A DNA stretch of 64,000 bases from the IMG/VR virus record IMGVR_UViG_3300032093_009077, positions 1-64,000 of that record, one strand, 5' to 3'. The translations under genes and the position numbers were made by a program. Positions 31,374-46,225 of the stretch are shown piece after piece. Each line of letters begins with the position of its first letter. Position 1 is the first letter of the stretch. Under the pieces are notes generated by a model. The model worked only from the letters and a program-made list of their open reading frames with translations, was not told where the DNA came from and made no database searches. This DNA is from a virus.

Positions 31374-32015
31374 ATGTACGGATTCGTCTATTTGACCACC
31401 AATAAAATTAATGGTAAAAAATACATCGGAATGTGTAAAAACACACATGAAAAAAATTATTTGGGTTCTGGAAAATTATTAAAATCTGCCATAAAAAAAT
31501 ATGGAAAAGAAAATTTTGAAAGAGTTATATTGCAAGAATGTCAAAATTTTGAGGAATTGAGTAAATCAGAAGAATATTGGATAAAAAAATATAATGCTGT
31601 TGAAGATAATACTTTTTATAATTTAACATCTGGTGGTTTTGGTGGTAACAGCGACTATTTAAAAGAGTATTGGAATAAATTTACCAAAGAAGAACGAAAA
31701 ATTTGTAGGCAATGGATTAAAAGAGATGTTTATGGTAAAAATAATCCAATGTATGGTAAAAAACACTCAGAAGAAACTAAAAGAATCATAGGTTCAAAAA
31801 GTGTGAATAGAAATTGGAATAAACCTAACCATAAGGGAGAAAAAAATCCTAGAGCCAAAAAAGTTCTAGTTGAAATGGATAATTTGGTAAATCAATTTAA
31901 TTGTCTAAAAACTTTTGCTAATAGTATTAAAAATATTCCTTACTCAACATTAAAGAGTATCGCAAAAGATGGAAGATATTCAAAAAAATATAATTTAAGA
32001 ATAACATATGTTTAA
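31374..32015 (+). CDS. GIY-YIG homing endonuclease
   Basis: 213 residues. GIY-YIG core: GFVYLTTN then KKYIGMCKN (residues 2-24), catalytic arginine segment near LLKSAIKKYGKENF, and a glutamate in EELSKSEEYWIKKY. NUMOD3 DNA-binding module NNPMYGKKHSEETKRIIG near residue 122. A freestanding HEG of the Seg type, expressed from its own late promoter. Its last 8 nt overlap the start of the next gene, which carries a frame break about 85 bp downstream. Confidence 0.9.
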   Translation: MYGFVYLTTNKINGKKYIGMCKNTHEKNYLGSGKLLKSAIKKYGKENFERVILQECQNFEELSKSEEYWIKKYNAVEDNTFYNLTSGGFGGNSDYLKEYWNKFTKEERKICRQWIKRDVYGKNNPMYGKKHSEETKRIIGSKSVNRNWNKPNHKGEKNPRAKKVLVEMDNLVNQFNCLKTFANSIKNIPYSTLKSIAKDGRYSKKYNLRITYV

Positions 32016-32097
32016 TTTTAACGACTTTTTAATGGAGAAAAATCAAGGTGTACTTCTTGCTGAAGAAAAATCTGGCAAGAATGTTCACCTTGAATAG
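32008..32097 (+). pseudogene. N-terminal fragment of the ligase-like gene (frame-broken)
   Basis: ATG 32008 opens a 29-codon frame (MFNFNDFLMEK... ending NVHLE, stop TAG 32095-32097). The next frame, open from 32094, continues AEHIEDEVL and runs into the 32118-33275 protein. The two parts look like one gene split by a single -1 shift (one missing base in GAATAG) or an 8-base insertion. The MFNFNDFLME start resembles a capsid-targeting peptide. Cause may be mutation after homing-endonuclease insertion, a recoding site or a sequence error. Confidence 0.6.
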
Positions 32098-32117
32098 CTG
32101 AGCATATCGAGGATGAA

Positions 32118-33275
32118 GTGTTAAATCGTGGTGTTTCTGGTGCTCGTGACGCAATTAACTTTTTGCAATCATTACGCAATATGTTGGCTGGCAATTCTCA
32201 AACAAAAATAAATGTAACGACCAAATGGGATGGCGCACCTGCCATATTTGCAGGTACTAATCCAGAAAATGGCAAATTCTTCGTTGGTACTAAATCAGTA
32301 TTCAACAAGGCCGCCAAATTAAACTATACAGAAGAAGATATTGATGCAAACCACCCTGGTGAAGGCTTGAATGTAAAACTAAAAGCTGCATTGAAACACC
32401 TGCCAAAACTTGGCATTAAAGGTATTTTGCAAGGTGACATGATGTTTGTGAAAGGTGATATTACAAGACAATCGATTGAAGGCCAATCATATATCACATT
32501 TCAACCAAACACAATCGTATATGCTGTGCCTACTAGTAGTGCATTGGCCAAAAAAATGTTAGATGCTCAAGTTGGTGTCGTGTTTCATACATCATATAGT
32601 GGCAAAACTATGGCCGATATGAAAGCATCTTTTAATATCGACATTGGTTATTTACGAAATACAAAAGATGTTTGGTTTCGTGATGCATCGTTTACTGATG
32701 CTTCTGGTTCTGCATCGTTTACAGAAGAAGAAACAAAACAAATTACAGGTGTTTTGTCTACCGCAGGTAAAACATTTCAATCGATCAATTCTTTGGTGTT
32801 AAATAAGATTGCTACGAGTGATGTGTATAAAACCTATATTAAGACATTCAACAATGCAAAAGTTCGTCAAGGTGAAAGAATAACTGACACCAGAAGGCAT
32901 ACGATAGAGTTGATTTCATGGATCGAAGCTAAGTTAAATAAAGAAATACAAGAAGCAAAAAAAGAAGATACTAAAAAGAAACGCATTAAAGAAAAAACAG
33001 AAGTCATGCGTTTTTTTCGTAACAATGCTGGACAATTAAAATCTATATTTGACCTGCAAAACATTTTAGTTTTTGCTAAAAATATGATTGTGAAAAAGTT
33101 ACAAGAAATACGGCAAGTTACAGGTACATTTTTACGAACAGACAAAGGATTTAAAGTTACAAATCCTGAAGGGTTTGTAGCAGTAGATAGATTAAAAGGT
33201 AATGCAGTAAAGTTAATTGATAGATTAGAATTCAGTCAGGCGAATTTTAATGCTACGAAAAATTGGGACAAATAA
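32118..33275 (+). CDS. nucleotidyltransferase/ligase-fold protein (DUF6267-like)
   Basis: 385 residues if started at the GTG 32118; the natural start is probably 32008 (see frame break). Motif I KWDGAPAIF (Lys nucleophile) near residue 36, then FFVGTKS, a GILQGDMMF motif III-like strand near 100, and VGVVFHTSYSG motif IV-like near 152 fit the DNA/RNA ligase nucleotidyltransferase fold, as in the DUF6267 family of T4-like phages. C-terminal half helical. Adenylation activity is inferred. Confidence 0.75.
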   Translation: MLNRGVSGARDAINFLQSLRNMLAGNSQTKINVTTKWDGAPAIFAGTNPENGKFFVGTKSVFNKAAKLNYTEEDIDANHPGEGLNVKLKAALKHLPKLGIKGILQGDMMFVKGDITRQSIEGQSYITFQPNTIVYAVPTSSALAKKMLDAQVGVVFHTSYSGKTMADMKASFNIDIGYLRNTKDVWFRDASFTDASGSASFTEEETKQITGVLSTAGKTFQSINSLVLNKIATSDVYKTYIKTFNNAKVRQGERITDTRRHTIELISWIEAKLNKEIQEAKKEDTKKKRIKEKTEVMRFFRNNAGQLKSIFDLQNILVFAKNMIVKKLQEIRQVTGTFLRTDKGFKVTNPEGFVAVDRLKGNAVKLIDRLEFSQANFNATKNWDK

Positions 33276-39528: not shown

Positions 39529-40152
39529 ATGAGATTTGGGTTCGTGTACCTATGGTACGATATAATTAGAAAAAAATATTACCTTGGAAGCCATCTAGGT
39601 CTTCCAACGGATGGTTATATTGGAAGTAATCGCCGTTTTCAATCCGCCTTCAAAAGTAGACCAGATTCCTTTAAACGAAGAATTTTGGAATCTCACGAAA
39701 AAATAACTTCTAAAGAATTACTTGCCAGAGAACAATATTGGTTGGATATGATTCAACCTATTGAGCTTGGAATTCGTTATTATAATGAAAAAAAGGTGGC
39801 GACTGGTGGAGATATAATTACTAACTTATCAGAAGAAAAAAGAAAAGAACATTCAATAAAATCAGGTTTAGCATCTAAAAAGTTTTGGGATAATATTTCA
39901 CTTAAAGATTATGAAAAAAGAAGAAAAGATGCTTTTGGTGGCAATAAATTTGATAGAAGTTATATGAAAGAAAGACAGGACAAATTATTTGCTCGCCAAG
40001 CTAAAATTATTTTTCCAACAGGCGAGGAAAAAATTATTAAAAATATAAGAGATTTTTGTAAAGAAAATAATTTAAATTATGGTAATTTTAAAACAATGTT
40101 AAGAGGCGAAAAATATAAATCTTGCGGCGGTTTTAAAGGCATTTACATATGA
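39529..40152 (+). CDS. GIY-YIG homing endonuclease
   Basis: 207 residues. GFVYLWYDIIRKKYYLGSH is the GIY-YIG strand pair, DGYIGSNRRFQSAF and RRILESHEKI follow, and EQYWLDMI contains the metal-binding Glu. C-terminal FCKENNLNYGNFKTMLRGEK resembles the end of the 7069 gene. It lies at a gene boundary, overlapping the next start by 4 nt, and has its own late promoter. Mobile within T4-type phages. Confidence 0.9.
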   Translation: MRFGFVYLWYDIIRKKYYLGSHLGLPTDGYIGSNRRFQSAFKSRPDSFKRRILESHEKITSKELLAREQYWLDMIQPIELGIRYYNEKKVATGGDIITNLSEEKRKEHSIKSGLASKKFWDNISLKDYEKRRKDAFGGNKFDRSYMKERQDKLFARQAKIIFPTGEEKIIKNIRDFCKENNLNYGNFKTMLRGEKYKSCGGFKGIYI

Positions 40153-42644
40153 AATTTAAAGATTTTTTATTTGAGCAGAGAGAAAAACACGCTGTTATGG
40201 CATTTGGTCGCCTTAATCCACCAACTCTCGGACACGAAAAACTAGTCAATAAAGTCAAAAGTATCGCACAAAAGGTTGGCGGTACTGCACATATCGTAGT
40301 TTCGCACTCTCAAGATTCTGAGAAAAATCCACTCTCCGCAGCACAAAAATTAAAACATGCTAAACGTGCATTTCCTGGTGTCCATGTTATGGCATCAGAC
40401 AAAGAGGCACCAAATTTTTTAGCACAGGCCGCCAAGTTACACAAAGCAGGTGTGACTCATTTTCATATGGTTGGTGGCCAAGATCGTGTAGAAGAATTTC
40501 ATAATCTTCTACACAAATATAATGGTGTAAAAGGACCACATGGTCGTTTTAATTTTAAAAAGATAGAAGTACACTCAGCAGGTGATAGAGATCCTGATTC
40601 TGAAGGTGTAGAAGGTATGTCAGCAAGTAAGATGAGAGAACACGCAAAAACAAATAATTTTGCTCACTTTAAAAAAGGTGTGCCATCAACAATGTCACAT
40701 GAACATGCATTTGAAATGTTCAAAGATGTTCGTAAAGGTATGGGATTGAAAGAAGATGTGAACACCGATTTTGAAGAATTACTTAATGAAGGTGTGCATG
40801 ACAAATCAATCTTCAAAGCAGTTTTCTTGGCAGGTGGTCCTGGTTCTGGTAAAGATTATGTTTTGGATAATACATTACAAGGACATGGTCTTGTTGAAAT
40901 TAATTCTGATAAGGCATTAGAGTTTTTAATGGACAAACATGGTCTTGATAAAACAATGCCTGCAACCGAGAAACATCGCCGTGATTTAGTTCGTGGTAAA
41001 GCCAAGAATATGACTGAGTTGCGTCAACGCCTTGCATTAATGGGTCGTAATGGTCTTATCATTAATGGTACAGGTGATGATGCAGAAAAGATTGGAACAA
41101 TTAAAAAGAAGTTAGAAGAATTAGGTTACGAGTCATCAATGGTAATGGTGAATACTGCTGATGATGTGTCGATGCAAAGAAACATTGAACGTGGCCAAAG
41201 AGGTGGTCGTACAGTACCAGAAGAAATAAGAAAACAAAAATGGGATGCATCACAAAATGCAAGACCAAAGTATGCAGAAATGTTTAAAGATAACTATCAT
41301 GAGTTTGACAATTCACAAGATTTGCGTACTGCACCACCAGAAGTTGTAAAAGCAAAAACAGAAGAATTAACACAAATTTATAAAAACATTCAAAAGTTTA
41401 CAAATAAACCAGCGAAGAATGATACATCTAAAAATTGGATTGCTTCTGAATTACAGAGAAAAGATCTGATGAAAGTAAACAAAGAAGTTGAAGTAAAAGA
41501 ACCACATTCATCATCTAAGGCTGCAGAAGATGCCAAGAAAAGAGGTTTACAATATTATGGTTTTGGTAGATATGGAACGAATGGTAAAGTTACATTCCGT
41601 TCTGTGCATGATAGATTAGTTGAAGTACCGAAAGAACCTATGAAAAAACCTGTCAACGAAGAATTTGAAGAATTGATTGCAGAAGATTTACGCAAGTGGT
41701 TTAGTAAAACAGATCCAGAAGGTGGTTGGAAAAGAATTAACAGTAAAGGTGAAGCAATTGGTCCTTGTGCAAGAGAACCAGGTGAACCAAAACCAAAATG
41801 TATGTCAAATGAGAAGCGTGCTAAATTAAGTAAAAAAGAAAGAGCATCAGCAGTTGCAGCTAAACGCCGCCATGATCCTGTTGCTGATCGATCTGGTAAA
41901 GGTGGAAAACCTGTAAACGTTTCTAATTTTGGTAAAGGTAAATTATCTGAATCATATGAATTATCCGATAGAGATTCATTAAATGTATTATTGTTAGGCA
42001 CTTCAATTGATGAAGTTGATCTTAATAATTTTGAAGAACAAAAGAAACCAAAATATCTTACGGATAAAAATGGTAAAGTAAGAACATTTATGCTTCGAGC
42101 AGCTGCTGCAAGAGAAGCACATACACAGAATGGTATTGTAATGCCATATAAAAATGGTTATGTAATTAAATTAAACGAGGAGAATGAAGATGTTAAACTT
42201 TCTGAAGAATCTATTTTCAACACCACAACCAGAAGTTCTGGACTCATTAGCGAAAACACCAAGCCAGAGAAAAGAAGAATCATCGGCGGCACCACAGCCT
42301 ACGGTTTCGCAAAAAAGCACGCCTACGCCGGAGAAGAAACCAGCAGTGATGAAGAATCCTCCGGCCAAATCAAAAAAATCACCCTCGCCGAAATCTGGAA
42401 AAGGAAAAAAGAAGTAAAAGAATCAATTGACAAAGGCATCGAACCAGGTATTTCTATGGCAGCTGCCGGCGAATCAATTGGTCGAGATATGGGTGAAAAG
42501 AACCGTAAAAAAGATGGTAAAGTTACGGTTACAAATGAAATGACTGGTGATGAAACTGGTGCATCGATTGGTGCTCAGAAAGAAGATGAATTAAAGAAAA
42601 AAGGAATTAACCTTTCAACATTTAAAACAAAGAACCCAATATGA
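40149..42644 (+). CDS. multi-domain head precursor: nucleotidyltransferase + P-loop kinase + basic module
   Basis: 831 residues. Residues 1-10 MKFKDFLFEQ resemble a capsid-targeting peptide. Residues 15-200: nucleotidyltransferase (FGRLNPPTLGH; MVGGQDRVEEFH; MSASKMRE), NMN-adenylyltransferase-like. Then DFEELLNEG (about 211-219) and a P-loop kinase, FLAGGPGSGKDYVL with INSDKALE and RGQRGGR. A second EEFEELIAED precedes a basic module with GGWKRINSKGEAIGPC. These [IL]-x-E sites could be cut by the prohead protease, releasing separate enzymes inside the capsid. The NMNAT-kinase order recalls NadR. NAD synthesis is inferred. A small gene is overprinted at 42190. Confidence 0.75.
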   Translation: MKFKDFLFEQREKHAVMAFGRLNPPTLGHEKLVNKVKSIAQKVGGTAHIVVSHSQDSEKNPLSAAQKLKHAKRAFPGVHVMASDKEAPNFLAQAAKLHKAGVTHFHMVGGQDRVEEFHNLLHKYNGVKGPHGRFNFKKIEVHSAGDRDPDSEGVEGMSASKMREHAKTNNFAHFKKGVPSTMSHEHAFEMFKDVRKGMGLKEDVNTDFEELLNEGVHDKSIFKAVFLAGGPGSGKDYVLDNTLQGHGLVEINSDKALEFLMDKHGLDKTMPATEKHRRDLVRGKAKNMTELRQRLALMGRNGLIINGTGDDAEKIGTIKKKLEELGYESSMVMVNTADDVSMQRNIERGQRGGRTVPEEIRKQKWDASQNARPKYAEMFKDNYHEFDNSQDLRTAPPEVVKAKTEELTQIYKNIQKFTNKPAKNDTSKNWIASELQRKDLMKVNKEVEVKEPHSSSKAAEDAKKRGLQYYGFGRYGTNGKVTFRSVHDRLVEVPKEPMKKPVNEEFEELIAEDLRKWFSKTDPEGGWKRINSKGEAIGPCAREPGEPKPKCMSNEKRAKLSKKERASAVAAKRRHDPVADRSGKGGKPVNVSNFGKGKLSESYELSDRDSLNVLLLGTSIDEVDLNNFEEQKKPKYLTDKNGKVRTFMLRAAAAREAHTQNGIVMPYKNGYVIKLNEENEDVKLSEESIFNTTTRSSGLISENTKPEKRRIIGGTTAYGFAKKHAYAGEETSSDEESSGQIKKITLAEIWKRKKEVKESIDKGIEPGISMAAAGESIGRDMGEKNRKKDGKVTVTNEMTGDETGASIGAQKEDELKKKGINLSTFKTKNPI
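42190..42417 (+). CDS. candidate overprinted small P/K/S-rich protein
   Basis: 75 residues in an alternative frame inside the 40149 gene. GAGGAG lies 7 bp before ATG 42190 (a second ATG is at 42184). The product starts MLNFLKNLFSTPQPEV and ends in a lysine-rich tail (KKSPSPKSGKGKKK). Over this stretch the host frame switches to C-rich third positions unlike the rest of the gene, as expected if two frames are constrained. It may equally be a chance ORF. Confidence 0.45.
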   Translation: MLNFLKNLFSTPQPEVLDSLAKTPSQRKEESSAAPQPTVSQKSTPTPEKKPAVMKNPPAKSKKSPSPKSGKGKKK

Positions 42645-43030
42645 AAAGACTAAAAGATTTTATTGCAGAACGTTGCTGGCCAGGATACAAACCTGCTCCA
42701 GGAAAAACTGCATACTCAAAAGGTTCTTGCGTAAAAGAAGAAGAACAAATCGATGAAGTGGCCGCATGGCAACGCAAAGAAGGTAAAAATCCTGAAGGTG
42801 GTTTGAATCGTAAAGGTATTGAATCATATCGCCGTGAAAATCCAGGTTCAAAACTTTCAATGGCAGTCACAACAAAACCAAGCAAATTGAAACCTGGTTC
42901 AAAAGCCGCTAATCGCCGTAAATCATTCTGTGCAAGAATGGGTGGAATGAAGAAGCGTTTAACATCTGCTAAAACCGCAAATGATCCCGATTCACGCATC
43001 AATAAAGCACTAAGAAAGTGGAACTGTTAA
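42641..43030 (+). CDS. small basic head-associated protein (DUF6321-like)
   Basis: 129 residues. MKRLKDFIAERCWPG is a capsid-targeting-like start with an I-A-E site; EEEQIDEVAAW gives a second I-D-E site. The remainder (NPEGGLNRKGIESYRREN, RRKSFCARMGGMKKRL, INKALRKWNC) matches the cysteine-containing basic module widespread in T4-like phages. Likely packaged with DNA. Overlaps the precursor gene by 4 nt. Confidence 0.75.
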   Translation: MKRLKDFIAERCWPGYKPAPGKTAYSKGSCVKEEEQIDEVAAWQRKEGKNPEGGLNRKGIESYRRENPGSKLSMAVTTKPSKLKPGSKAANRRKSFCARMGGMKKRLTSAKTANDPDSRINKALRKWNC

Positions 43031-43036
43031 TATATT

Positions 43037-44452
43037 ATGACACAATTTACGACACAAACAAATCAGTTTTTAAACACCAATAGGCACATCTATGAGGTCA
43101 TGTATTTGGCCAATGGTGCCAATGGTGATATTGTGTCGACCGGAAATAGATTGCCAGTTGATGCTGCATTTTCTGGCACTGCTGGTGATGCTTTTGGCCG
43201 TTTGCGTGTTGCAGAACCATTTACACTTGGTGACTACAAACATCTTTACGCAATTGACCCAAACTTTATAGATTTTACTGCAAATGGCGGTTCAGTTGTG
43301 TTTACAGGAAATACTGCTTCTGCTACACTATCAACAAACAATAGCACATCATCTGTATCGGTACACCAAAGTAAATTTTATCATAGTTATCAACCAGGCA
43401 AATCACAAGTTATTCTTTCTTCTGTTGTGTTTGGGTACGCACAACAAAATGTGACAAAGAGAACTGGATACTTTGATGACCGTGATGGAATTTATTTTGA
43501 GCAAGTTGGTTCAAACACATCAACCGGCACAGATAACGGAACATTAAATTTTGTAATTCGTTCTTTTGTTACTGGTACTCCATTAGAAACAGATATTGGT
43601 TCTTATAAGCGTAGAGTGCCACAATCACAATGGAATGTTGACCGCTGTGATGGCACAGGAGCATCAGGTTTCAATATCGATACTTCAAAAACACAATTAA
43701 TTTATATTGACTTTCAATGGTTAGGTGTTGGTCGTGTTCGTGTTGGTTTTGTTCACGATGGTGCGTTTATTATAGCACATGAATACTATCACTCAAATGT
43801 ATTGGATGAAGTTTATATTTCAAATCCAAATTTACCAGTTCGTTGTGAAATAAGAAATACAGGAACAACTTCTGGCGGTTCTATGGATCAAATATGTGCT
43901 ACTGTTATTGCAGAGGGTGGTTACAATGAATCTGGACTTGATTGGTCGGTTGTTGGTGATGCAAGAACAACAGCTACACCATCTGCGACAGAATTGCCAC
44001 TTATTGCATTGAGATTAAAAAATACATTTCAAACTTACCCTAATAGATTAAGTGTAAAATTGGAAACTCTTTCACTATATGCGGAAACAAATAGTATTAT
44101 TTTTAAGATTATAAAATTACCAAATCAAGGACATTTGGCAAATAGCACAGGTGCGTTAGTGTGGACTTCAGCAGATTCGGATAGTGGTTGTGAATATTGC
44201 GTTAATGCTAATACATATGATTCAGCTAACGGAGATATGTTATTGTCTGGATTTGTTCCGTCAGGGTCATCACAAAATTCCTTGTCACCAGTAAGCACCG
44301 GAGGAATTTCTACCGCAAAGAAAAATATTATTACACAAAATTTTGATTCAACAAATTCAGAAGTATATGTAGTAGTGGTCAGAACAATTACAACAGCCGG
44401 TAATCAATCTGCAACCGTAGCAGCTGCATTACAATGGCGAGAAATTTATTAA
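43037..44452 (+). CDS. virion structural protein
   Basis: 471 residues, beta-rich, low in charge, rich in Ser/Thr/Asn. The N-terminal GDAFGRLRVAEPFTLGDYK is a signature of structural proteins in T4-like phages of cyanobacteria and other aquatic hosts. Further motifs WNVDRCDGTG and IDFQWLGVGRVRVGFVHDG belong to the same family. Probably a fibre- or head-associated protein; location cannot be fixed from sequence. Weak ribosome site. Confidence 0.78.
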   Translation: MTQFTTQTNQFLNTNRHIYEVMYLANGANGDIVSTGNRLPVDAAFSGTAGDAFGRLRVAEPFTLGDYKHLYAIDPNFIDFTANGGSVVFTGNTASATLSTNNSTSSVSVHQSKFYHSYQPGKSQVILSSVVFGYAQQNVTKRTGYFDDRDGIYFEQVGSNTSTGTDNGTLNFVIRSFVTGTPLETDIGSYKRRVPQSQWNVDRCDGTGASGFNIDTSKTQLIYIDFQWLGVGRVRVGFVHDGAFIIAHEYYHSNVLDEVYISNPNLPVRCEIRNTGTTSGGSMDQICATVIAEGGYNESGLDWSVVGDARTTATPSATELPLIALRLKNTFQTYPNRLSVKLETLSLYAETNSIIFKIIKLPNQGHLANSTGALVWTSADSDSGCEYCVNANTYDSANGDMLLSGFVPSGSSQNSLSPVSTGGISTAKKNIITQNFDSTNSEVYVVVVRTITTAGNQSATVAAALQWREIY

Positions 44453-44469
44453 AACTCAGGAGAAAAACC

Positions 44470-45243
44470 ATGCAATTTGACAACCAAAAAACAAGAAATG
44501 TCGCAGATGTAGTTGCCAAGATTTTGGCTGGTGAATCTGCAAAGCAGGAACCAAAGATGTTGGAAGAAGAATTAAAAGGTCAACAACATAAGATTGATGC
44601 CAATAAAAATAACAAGATTGATGCTCACGACTTCAAACTGCTTCGTGCTAAAAAAGAAGTGAAGAAAGAAGAAGTAGAGCAGATTGATGAAGTATTTGAA
44701 AAAGATGATCCTGTAGGCACCAAAAAGAAAACAACTATGGGAACAGCAACAAAAACTGCAACAGGTATGAAACACGAAAGAACACCCGAGAAAGATCTTG
44801 AAGCAGGCGTCACAGATTGGGATAAAGAAGAAAGATTAGCAAAAAGACATTTGAGTCCTAAACCTGCTAAGAAAAAATATGGTGCTCGTCAAAATTATAT
44901 TCGTTCTACCCGTGTAAATGAATCTTTTACAGGATTACTTTCACAGTATCAAGAAGGCGGATTAAAGAATCTTTTTGAATCACTTAAAAAAGAAGAAGAA
45001 GTTTTAAATGAAGAAGTAAAAGAAGAAACTGTAGAAGTTGAAGTCACCGATTTAAATGCAACAAATGGTGTTGCCATCGAAACCATTGAAGAGCGTACAC
45101 TTACAGAGCCAGAAACTGCAAAGAAAGAAGAAATTGTTAAGTCGATGAAAAAGAAAATGTCTGGCTTTAAACAGCGTTATGGTGAGGACGCTAAATCAGT
45201 AATGTATGCCACCGCCACCAAAATGGCCAAGAAAGGTGCCTGA
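44470..45243 (+). CDS. acidic/basic head-core-like protein with EF-hand-type loop
   Basis: 257 residues from ATG 44470 (CAGGAG 8-13 bp upstream). An EF-hand-like loop DANKNNKIDAHD (about 45-56) is followed by KKEEVEQIDE, a repeated motif with an I-D-E site. Then charged helices, an NESFTGLLSQYQ segment and a C-terminal RYGEDAKSVMYATATKMAKK module common to T4-like phage head proteins. Probably a packaged, processed protein. Disorder is predicted by eye from composition. Confidence 0.7.
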   Translation: MQFDNQKTRNVADVVAKILAGESAKQEPKMLEEELKGQQHKIDANKNNKIDAHDFKLLRAKKEVKKEEVEQIDEVFEKDDPVGTKKKTTMGTATKTATGMKHERTPEKDLEAGVTDWDKEERLAKRHLSPKPAKKKYGARQNYIRSTRVNESFTGLLSQYQEGGLKNLFESLKKEEEVLNEEVKEETVEVEVTDLNATNGVAIETIEERTLTEPETAKKEEIVKSMKKKMSGFKQRYGEDAKSVMYATATKMAKKGA

Positions 45244-45244
45244 A

Positions 45245-46225
45245 ATGAAAAAACCGTCTGAAGTTTTCAGCAGTATTCGTTACGCTAAAGGTAAATCAAA
45301 AGATAAACCTCATACATCAACAGACAATGAGGAACATTATACCGTTGGCGAAAAAGAATACGATCAACAAGTAAAACATGTCAAAAAAATGGCGATGCAG
45401 GAACAAAGTGATACCATGGAAAAAGTTGAAATGGTAAAATCACAATTGCATTTCATCAAATATGCTTGCGAAGAAATTCTTGAATATATTGATATGGGCG
45501 GTGAAGTTGAAGAATGGTATCAAGTTAAAGTTGCCAAATCTTTTAGTGAGTTTGAAAGTCTCCATGCATTTATGGAAGGCGAATCTCGCCGTAAAGGTAT
45601 GAAAGAAGAAGTGGAACAGTTAGATGAATTATCACCATCTACAGTTTCTTCTTATAAAACTCAAGCACAAAAAAGTATTCAACAATTAAAACCACATGCC
45701 GAAAAAGGTGAGTATCGTGATATTGCTAAAAATATCATGCAACGCCGTCAAAAAGGCCTTGCTGCAGCCATGAAGCGTGAAGAAGTAGAACAGTTAGATG
45801 AAAAGAATGTTCCTACGAACCCATCTTTATGGTCGAGAGCAAAAGCGTTAGCACGATCAAAGTTTGATGTGTATCCATCAGCATATGCAAATGGTTGGGC
45901 ATCAAAATGGTATAAAGGAAAAGGTGGTGGTTGGAAATCTGTAAGTGAATCTGTAGAAAATCCTCCATTCGAAGGTGGTACAAAATCAAAAGAAAAAGTA
46001 GTACCCGGCAAACATGGTAAAGGATATTCGACTGCTCGCCATCTTGCTCGTATGGCCATGAAAAAACAAGTCGAAAAGATGAAAAAGGCACCTATGAAAG
46101 AAGAAACTCGTAAGGCTGCTATTGTAAAAGACATTATGAAGAAGAAAACTGAACCCGATGATAAGTTTCAAGCAAATCCAACACTTACTTCACAGGTTCA
46201 AAAGGTCGATAACGCAGTAACATAA
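45245..46225 (+). CDS. modular head-associated protein with EEVEQLDE repeats
   Basis: 326 residues from ATG 45245. Two EEVEQLDE sites (about residues 122 and 183) separate modules: an N-terminal helical part (QSDTMEKVEMVKSQL), a middle helical part (LSPSTVSSYKTQAQKS), and a C-terminal basic module (KFDVYPSAYANGWASKWYK, GGGWK) typical of T4-like phages. Each site fits the prohead protease rule [IL]-x-E. It ends in a late-promoter-like motif. Confidence 0.72.
   Translation: MKKPSEVFSSIRYAKGKSKDKPHTSTDNEEHYTVGEKEYDQQVKHVKKMAMQEQSDTMEKVEMVKSQLHFIKYACEEILEYIDMGGEVEEWYQVKVAKSFSEFESLHAFMEGESRRKGMKEEVEQLDELSPSTVSSYKTQAQKSIQQLKPHAEKGEYRDIAKNIMQRRQKGLAAAMKREEVEQLDEKNVPTNPSLWSRAKALARSKFDVYPSAYANGWASKWYKGKGGGWKSVSESVENPPFEGGTKSKEKVVPGKHGKGYSTARHLARMAMKKQVEKMKKAPMKEETRKAAIVKDIMKKKTEPDDKFQANPTLTSQVQKVDNAVT

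Follow-up and report, generated by a model that had tools for sequence, protein, structure and literature searches.

The subject of this work is a single gene in a 64,000-nucleotide stretch of viral DNA (the window; positions 1 to 64,000 of IMG/VR record IMGVR_UViG_3300032093_009077, a viral contig of 67,938 bases), whose product is probably a head-cargo precursor, targeted by its leader and cut by a gp21-type prohead protease into separate enzymes. The gene lies on the plus strand at 40149-42644 and is an intact open reading frame of 831 amino acids (aa) that joins a nicotinamide mononucleotide adenylyltransferase (NMNAT)-fold domain, a P-loop kinase and a basic module (Table 1). T4-like phages from the family Kyanoviridae, along with uncultured viruses, make up the relatives of the source record, and in T4 itself the internal proteins are packaged via a leader and cleaved by gp21. 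In the window protein, the first nine residues, which resemble the T4 capsid-targeting sequence, would bring the precursor into the prohead core. There a gp21-type protease would cleave the leader and the two internal sites, each time after [LI]-x-E, and so set free the nucleotidyltransferase, the kinase and the basic module inside the head. Judging from T4 practice, the freed basic proteins would stay with the DNA in the head and accompany it into the next host.

Leader and border motifs of the precursor

The domain composition of the precursor, as had been claimed from the sequence in the original prediction, is borne out by profile searches. Residues 6-205 match an NMNAT-like/cytidyltransferase family (phrog_3041, E 1e-67, and also phrog_395), residues 223-369 match the Pfam families Zeta_toxin (3e-12) and AAA_33 (1e-6), and residues 513-595 match phrog_12753 and phrog_23735, a module common to other phage proteins. 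The T4 internal proteins ipII and ipIII begin with MKTYQEFIAEA, as read from the T4 record; in this leader, residues 4 and 7 serve targeting while residues 8 and 10 serve processing, and gp21 cleaves after L/I-x-E (PMC9026906). The window leader displays F3, F6, L7 and E9 at a spacing identical to that of these T4 residues.

A motif written from the ipII/ipIII leader, [FYWLM]xx[FYLM][ILVM]xE, finds exactly three matches in the 831 residues, namely FKDFLFE (aa 3-9), FEELLNE (aa 208-214) and FEELIAE (aa 506-512), while shuffled versions of the precursor contain a mean of 0.32 (P=0.003 for three). With the stricter form F..[FL][IL].E the shuffle mean falls to 0.026, and none of 5000 shuffles gave three matches. 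The bare [LI]xE triplet is only mildly enriched (13 occurrences against 8.0 expected, P=0.05), and the weight of the argument therefore rests on the longer motif and its placement: both internal sites end directly before the start of a conserved module, the kinase at aa 215 and the DLRKWF module at aa 513. The prediction of a targeting-like N-terminus and of two internal F-E-E-L-[LI]-x-E sites situated exactly at domain borders thus stands. Additional [LI]xE triplets are found in the C-terminal third of the protein, at aa 599, 620, 675, 684, 700 and 746, and this part of the precursor may be cut further.

Conservation of the sites, and protease and virion data from relatives

Kinase homologues were collected with an alignment from five phages as the query, a search of IMG/VR with a single protein having found close relatives only. 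At least 544 kinase-encoding stretches are present in IMG/VR; 61 distinct sequences were obtained from the best 80 loci. The search patterns demanded the P-loop or an IFKA segment and never the site, and the presence of the latter in kinase homologues was therefore not selected for. In all 61 sequences the predicted cut falls between E (P1) and G (P1'), and 59 of them have L or I at P3, while P2 is occupied by 13 different residues (entropy of 2.6-3.2 bits, as opposed to 0.9-1.0 at P3 and 0 at P1). A second collection, from bacterial and archaeal assemblies and scored with the slightly looser pattern [LIVMF]xE[GAS], added 19 kinase sequences, all 19 with the site; several of these are probably located on phage contigs binned with their hosts.

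Both architectures have the site: in 34 homologues the kinase is fused behind another domain, and in 27 it stands alone, at or near the protein start. Standalone kinases begin with T4-leader-like sequences such as MKTFAELQE/G in Melnitz and MIPFILKE/G in HTVC008M (the slash marks the predicted cut), and in one further locus MEFKDFISE/G forms the start of a longer protein, before the kinase. Since fused and standalone kinases share the site, the internal site of the window protein has the look of an N-terminal leader after fusion. From this correspondence it is suggested that each module would bring its own leader and site, and that after fusion or module movement the former N-terminal propeptide would become an internal site, this direction of change being the presumed one. 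Among the fusion partners are at least two sequence types of NMNAT domain. In Agrobacterium phage Atu_ph07 (L019:3245-5581, one of the 61), the kinase follows a putative ADP-ribosyltransferase-like domain, with xE/G at the border.

Modules other than the kinase obey the same rule and are shuffled among proteins. The DLRKWF module is preceded by a site in 12 of 14 contexts (2.2 expected) and DUF6321, the module of the next gene, in 54 of 74 (11.9 expected), counts that include related sequences, not all of them independent. The exceptions for DUF6321 include many short proteins, with a different start and on other contigs; in the records with leaderless DUF6321 a search for Peptidase_S77 gave no match, these fragments of 6-18 kb being too short to show absence. 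The DLRKWF module is part of a different protein in a 70%-identical relative (L007) and lies at the protein start in Sf-CH8. The GYG module recurs as well: cyanophage NMNAT-like proteins have it after their leader, and it is present in two S-CREM2 virion proteins, the Cas9-like and the APH-kinase-like one. Sites of the EE[VI]E-[LI][DE]E type occur 82 times in distinct form ahead of 66 different sequences in the collected loci, and T4-style leaders of the same kind are carried by unrelated neighbour genes. Taken together, the comparisons constitute strong evidence that these are real processing sites.

The enzyme that would perform the cuts is encoded by most of the relatives examined. Peptidase_S77 (PF03420), the gp21-type protease, is present in 8 of the 11 related records searched, among them a 135.9-kb relative with the same kind of fused gene. 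Few ATG-start frames of this relative carry the motif within their first 13 residues, and they include two genes just before the protease, DUF6267, and the NMNAT-kinase gene together with its next gene. The capsid proteins of six relatives display L-x-E near residue 50, at about the maturation position of T4 gp23.

Virion proteomics provides additional indications. A cytidyltransferase/NMNAT-like protein has been detected in virions of S-SM1 (PMC3037559), S-CREM2 (PMC10665884), S-SCSM1 (PMC9602691) and S-SZBM1 (PMC9146016). Six of the 218 coding sequences of S-CREM2 carry the motif in their first 15 aa, and five of the six appear among its published virion proteins (Fisher P=0.003, or P=0.0003 without tail proteins); windows of 15, 20 and 25 residues were all computed, with P of 0.003-0.008, and several of the leaders had been seen beforehand. 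The SAM hydrolase, Cas9-like protein and APH-like kinase of this phage (gp6, gp12 and gp14), all reported from its virions, begin with the T4-style leaders MKDFDSFLEEF, PLRFASFMAEA and MKRFDAFLTEE.

A number of observations weigh against the precursor being packaged and cut. No gp21-type protease was found on the source record, a fragment of 68 kb, and a match was likewise missing from three of the 11 related records, which at 40-125 kb are probably fragments. The S-CREM2 test depends on six proteins, and the S-CREM2 authors warn that CsCl-purified virions can carry co-purifying proteins (PMC10665884). The NMNAT leader of HTVC008M, MKTLKELLRKK, has no glutamate, and the E-G ahead of the kinase might be a structural trait of this kinase family instead of marking a protease site, a point taken up below. 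Cleavage or virion data were found for no phage with the fused form, the phage of the window included. The predicted packaging and border cleavage find their support in the comparative sites, the protease of relatives and the published virion proteomics of NMNAT-like homologues. On this comparative basis, packaging and cutting of the window precursor are likely.

Candidate activities and alternative explanations

The AlphaFold models of both enzyme domains are confident (Table 1). In structure the kinase comes closest to a putative kinase, O-phosphoseryl-tRNA kinase (PSTK) and the polynucleotide kinase (PNK) of C. thermocellum, with Z of about 15 and root-mean-square deviations of 3.1-3.3 over 160-180 residues, followed by zeta toxin and T4 PNK at Z 13-14, while Foldseek ranks zeta toxin and adenylate kinases first. 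PF06414 scores above its cutoff, the Walker A motif, the catalytic Asp after beta2 and the LID arginines are present (GxPGSGK, NxD, R134 and R140 are invariant), and matches at Z 13-15 place the domain with the zeta toxin, PNK and PSTK-like kinases. A fold of this kind fixes no single substrate, the most likely being a nucleic-acid end, a tRNA or a nucleotide. The first domain matches phosphopantetheine adenylyltransferase (PPAT) at Z 15 and NMNAT at Z 13, and Foldseek ranks nicotinic acid mononucleotide adenylyltransferase first; its fold suggests an enzyme that would adenylylate a small phosphate compound, possibly nicotinamide mononucleotide.

Two specific roles for the released enzymes can be envisaged, both of which share the packaging step. 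One is an injected end-repair kit: the kinase would phosphorylate RNA or DNA 5' ends and, alongside further packaged enzymes such as the DUF6267 protein, repair nicked tRNA or DNA on its way in. The proximity to C. thermocellum PNK, PSTK and T4 PNK described above is in line with such a role, as are the match of the HTVC008M kinase to phrog_505, a polynucleotide kinase family, and the presence, in several phages, of DUF6267 with a targeting leader and a KxDG motif (KWDGAPA). However, adenylate kinases and zeta toxin score nearly equally, so that the fold does not set the substrate, and although KxDG and EGxV motifs suggest a ligase, DUF6267 has no sequence-level ligase match among PDB chains. 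The proposal is accordingly a tentative one, at a probability well short of even.

The other role, already put forward in the original prediction, is the salvage of nicotinamide adenine dinucleotide (NAD), in which an NMNAT and a nicotinamide riboside kinase, in the order known from NadR, would restore NAD upon entry and so oppose defences that deplete it. The idea that phage heads carry NAD/ADP-ribose enzymes has already been published (PMC9503650). Reconstitution of NAD by phages is a known strategy. NAD synthesis is also suggested by the virion-proteomics authors in the S-CREM2 and S-SCSM1 papers, and the first domain does have the NMNAT fold; its motifs include one of HxGH type and SxSxxR. 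The NadR comparison holds for the fold of this domain and fails for the kinase, for which neither PF13521 (in the record, and in Pfam at E<=0.1) nor TIGR01526 (NCBIfam) was matched. A nicotinamide riboside kinase is absent from its 50 best structural matches, which does not exclude one, and the domain is often standalone or joined to other domains. A search of 8 records, among them the HTVC008M and Melnitz-3 genomes and the fragment record of the window, yielded no NadV (PF04095), and the first domain is equally close to PPAT. In view of the kinase folds, the missing NadR-family match, the PPAT-like first domain and the lack of NadV, NAD salvage, whose support ends at the fold of the first domain, is rated as possible and unproven, and a rather unlikely role; a kinase of nucleic-acid or tRNA ends is at least as likely.

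A different explanation, equally doubtful, concerns the site itself: [LI]xE-G could be a structural segment conserved at the N-terminus of the kinase, with a protein that works uncut and any packaging mediated by the first nine residues only. The invariance of G at P1' and of D at P4' does indicate that the sequence is constrained after the proposed cut as well as before it. A structural segment does not, however, readily account for a hypervariable P2 between nearly or fully fixed P3 and P1, for the same signature on the unrelated DUF6321, DLRKWF, NMNAT and DUF6267 modules, or for the 66 different sequences that follow EE[VI]E-[LI][DE]E sites. It is most improbable that these are ordinary intracellular auxiliary metabolic enzymes joined by chance, with coincidental motif matches of the kind that short motifs give in charged proteins and that the mild excess of bare [LI]xE might suggest, since the site is conserved across 80 homologues and placed at borders, and homologues have been detected in virions.

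Neighbouring genes and comparison with known systems

Table 1. Features of the precursor gene, of neighbouring genes and of S-CREM2 virion proteins (slash, predicted cut; L012, S-CREM2 locus)
Feature	Position	Strand	Remarks
Precursor gene: leader, NMNAT-fold domain, P-loop kinase, GYG linker module, basic DLRKWF module, C-terminal tail	40149..42644	+	831 aa
Capsid-targeting-like leader MKFKDFLFE, aa 1-9, predicted cut after E9	40149..40175	+	spacing as in T4 ipII/ipIII leader
NMNAT-fold nucleotidyltransferase, aa 10-214, motifs GRLNPPTLGH and GMSASKMR	40176..40790	+	model pLDDT 86, fold matches
Predicted internal cleavage site FEELLNE/G, aa 208-214	40770..40790	+	motif and homologue comparison
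P-loop kinase domain, aa 215-445, Walker A GGPGSGKD, NSD motif, LID arginines	40791..41483	+	model pLDDT 92, fold matches
GYG module, aa 458-493, about 36 aa	41520..41627	+	profile search of collected loci
Predicted internal cleavage site FEELIAE/D, aa 506-512	41664..41684	+	motif and module contexts
Basic module DLRKWF...GGW, aa 513-603, pI 10.1; in relatives located in other proteins	41685..41957	+	
C-terminal tail, aa 604-831, more LxE/IxE triplets	41958..42641	+	
Next gene, DUF6321, leader MKRLKDFIAE, second predicted site QIDE/VAAW before the DUF6321 module	42641..43030	+	
Neighbouring basic protein, internal EEVEQIDE site	44434..45243	+	
Neighbouring basic protein, two internal EEVEQLDE sites	45206..46225	+	
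DUF6267 gene, leader MFNFNDFLMEK (MFNFNDFLMEKNQGVLLAEEKSGKNVHLE)	32008..33275	+	frame interrupted at 32095
S-CREM2 gp6, gp12, gp14	L012:3837-5081, L012:7704-10313, L012:10579-12846		

Several observations concern the genes that surround the precursor and their counterparts in other phages. After its leader, the DUF6267 gene is interrupted by a TAG at 32095 and by an 8-nt frame-shifting insertion, the remainder continuing in another frame. This arrangement is conserved in six other contigs, in two lineages about 83% identical, and a GIY-YIG homing endonuclease gene lies directly upstream of every interrupted copy (31374-32015 in the window), while the gene is uninterrupted in two other loci, L205 and L206. 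Frameshifting or bypass, or else a split gene, is possible, and the arrangement bears a likeness to the gene 60 bypass of T4 with its homing-endonuclease cassette. A second GIY-YIG-like homing endonuclease gene, at 39529-40152, lies directly upstream of the precursor and overlaps its start by 4 bases, with none at the equivalent place in relative L007. Another neighbour gene (L009:2272-3357 and L008:3194-4252) also carries a leader, MQGFKTFLSEA in Melnitz, and has residues reminiscent of a PD-(D/E)xK nuclease, for which there was no useful Pfam match. Finally, the cytidyltransferase start of phage C48C1 (L010:4988-5055) is apparently annotated too far downstream, an upstream in-frame GTG giving the leader MIKNFSQYLLE.

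On balance, it is somewhat more likely than not that T4-like marine and freshwater phages possess a modular polyprotein system for injected effectors, in which enzymes and small basic modules, each with its leader-plus-[LI]xE unit, would be shuffled and fused between precursors, packaged into the head via the leader and cut apart there by the prohead protease. The sequence features, their conservation, the module shuffling and the protease of relatives are observed directly; targeting, cleavage and injection, as well as all enzyme functions, are inferred. If this reading is true, the leader code would predict injected effectors, including the Cas9-like nuclease, the SAM hydrolase and the APH-like kinase of S-CREM2, and the head of T4-like phages, which are among the commonest viruses of the sea, would be a delivery vehicle with sequence-readable cargo. 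The prohead protease would double as a polyprotein processor, the recurrent metabolic-looking enzymes of cyanophage virions would be explained, and the question of whether they are contaminants or cargo would become testable. Since the kinase does not resemble that of NadR, nucleic-acid ends and tRNA join NAD precursors as candidates for the activity.

Within the open-licence literature, no description was found of a multi-enzyme precursor of T4-like type in which every domain border has a prohead-protease site and modules move between precursors, nor any paper on DUF6321, DUF6267 and cytidyltransferase in phages, and the phrase 'targeting sequence', sought in connection with cyanophages, was found only in the T4 review PMC9026906. 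The closest known arrangement is that of T4 internal proteins IPI-III and Alt, which are basic head-interior proteins delivered with DNA; the window precursor shares with them the leader layout aromatic-x-x-hydrophobic-[ILV]-x-E, the predicted cut after E and the T4-like phage group, but the internal proteins are single small proteins, whereas the precursor comprises several enzymes with extra sites at module borders. The T4 core proteins gp22, gp67 and gp68 likewise carry several gp21 sites within one protein; these, however, are degraded to peptides and mostly expelled, whereas the window cuts are predicted between folded domains. Polyvalent proteins (Iyer et al. 2017, PMC5512222) combine several domains and are presumed to enter the cell together with the phage DNA. 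The window protein likewise has two enzyme domains and would be injected, but the release of polyvalent proteins, if any, is described as the work of an embedded peptidase, while the sites of the window protein fit a separate prohead protease. The cyanophage virion NMNATs/cytidylyltransferases of S-SM1, S-SCSM1, S-CREM2 and S-SZBM1 have a homologous first domain, and the leaders MKSFLQFLKE of S-SCSM1 and MKNFSSFLTE of S-CREM2 are of the same type as that of the window, although those examined have no fused kinase; the consulted portions of the proteomics papers do not link these proteins to a targeting leader or to protease sites. NadR, formed by an NMNAT and a ribosylnicotinamide kinase, shares the succession of nucleotidyltransferase and P-loop kinase, but the kinase of the window derives from another P-loop kinase branch, is often standalone and would be separable by the predicted cleavage. 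By its sequence, the precursor would represent a modular, multi-enzyme variant of T4 internal-protein packaging, new as such.

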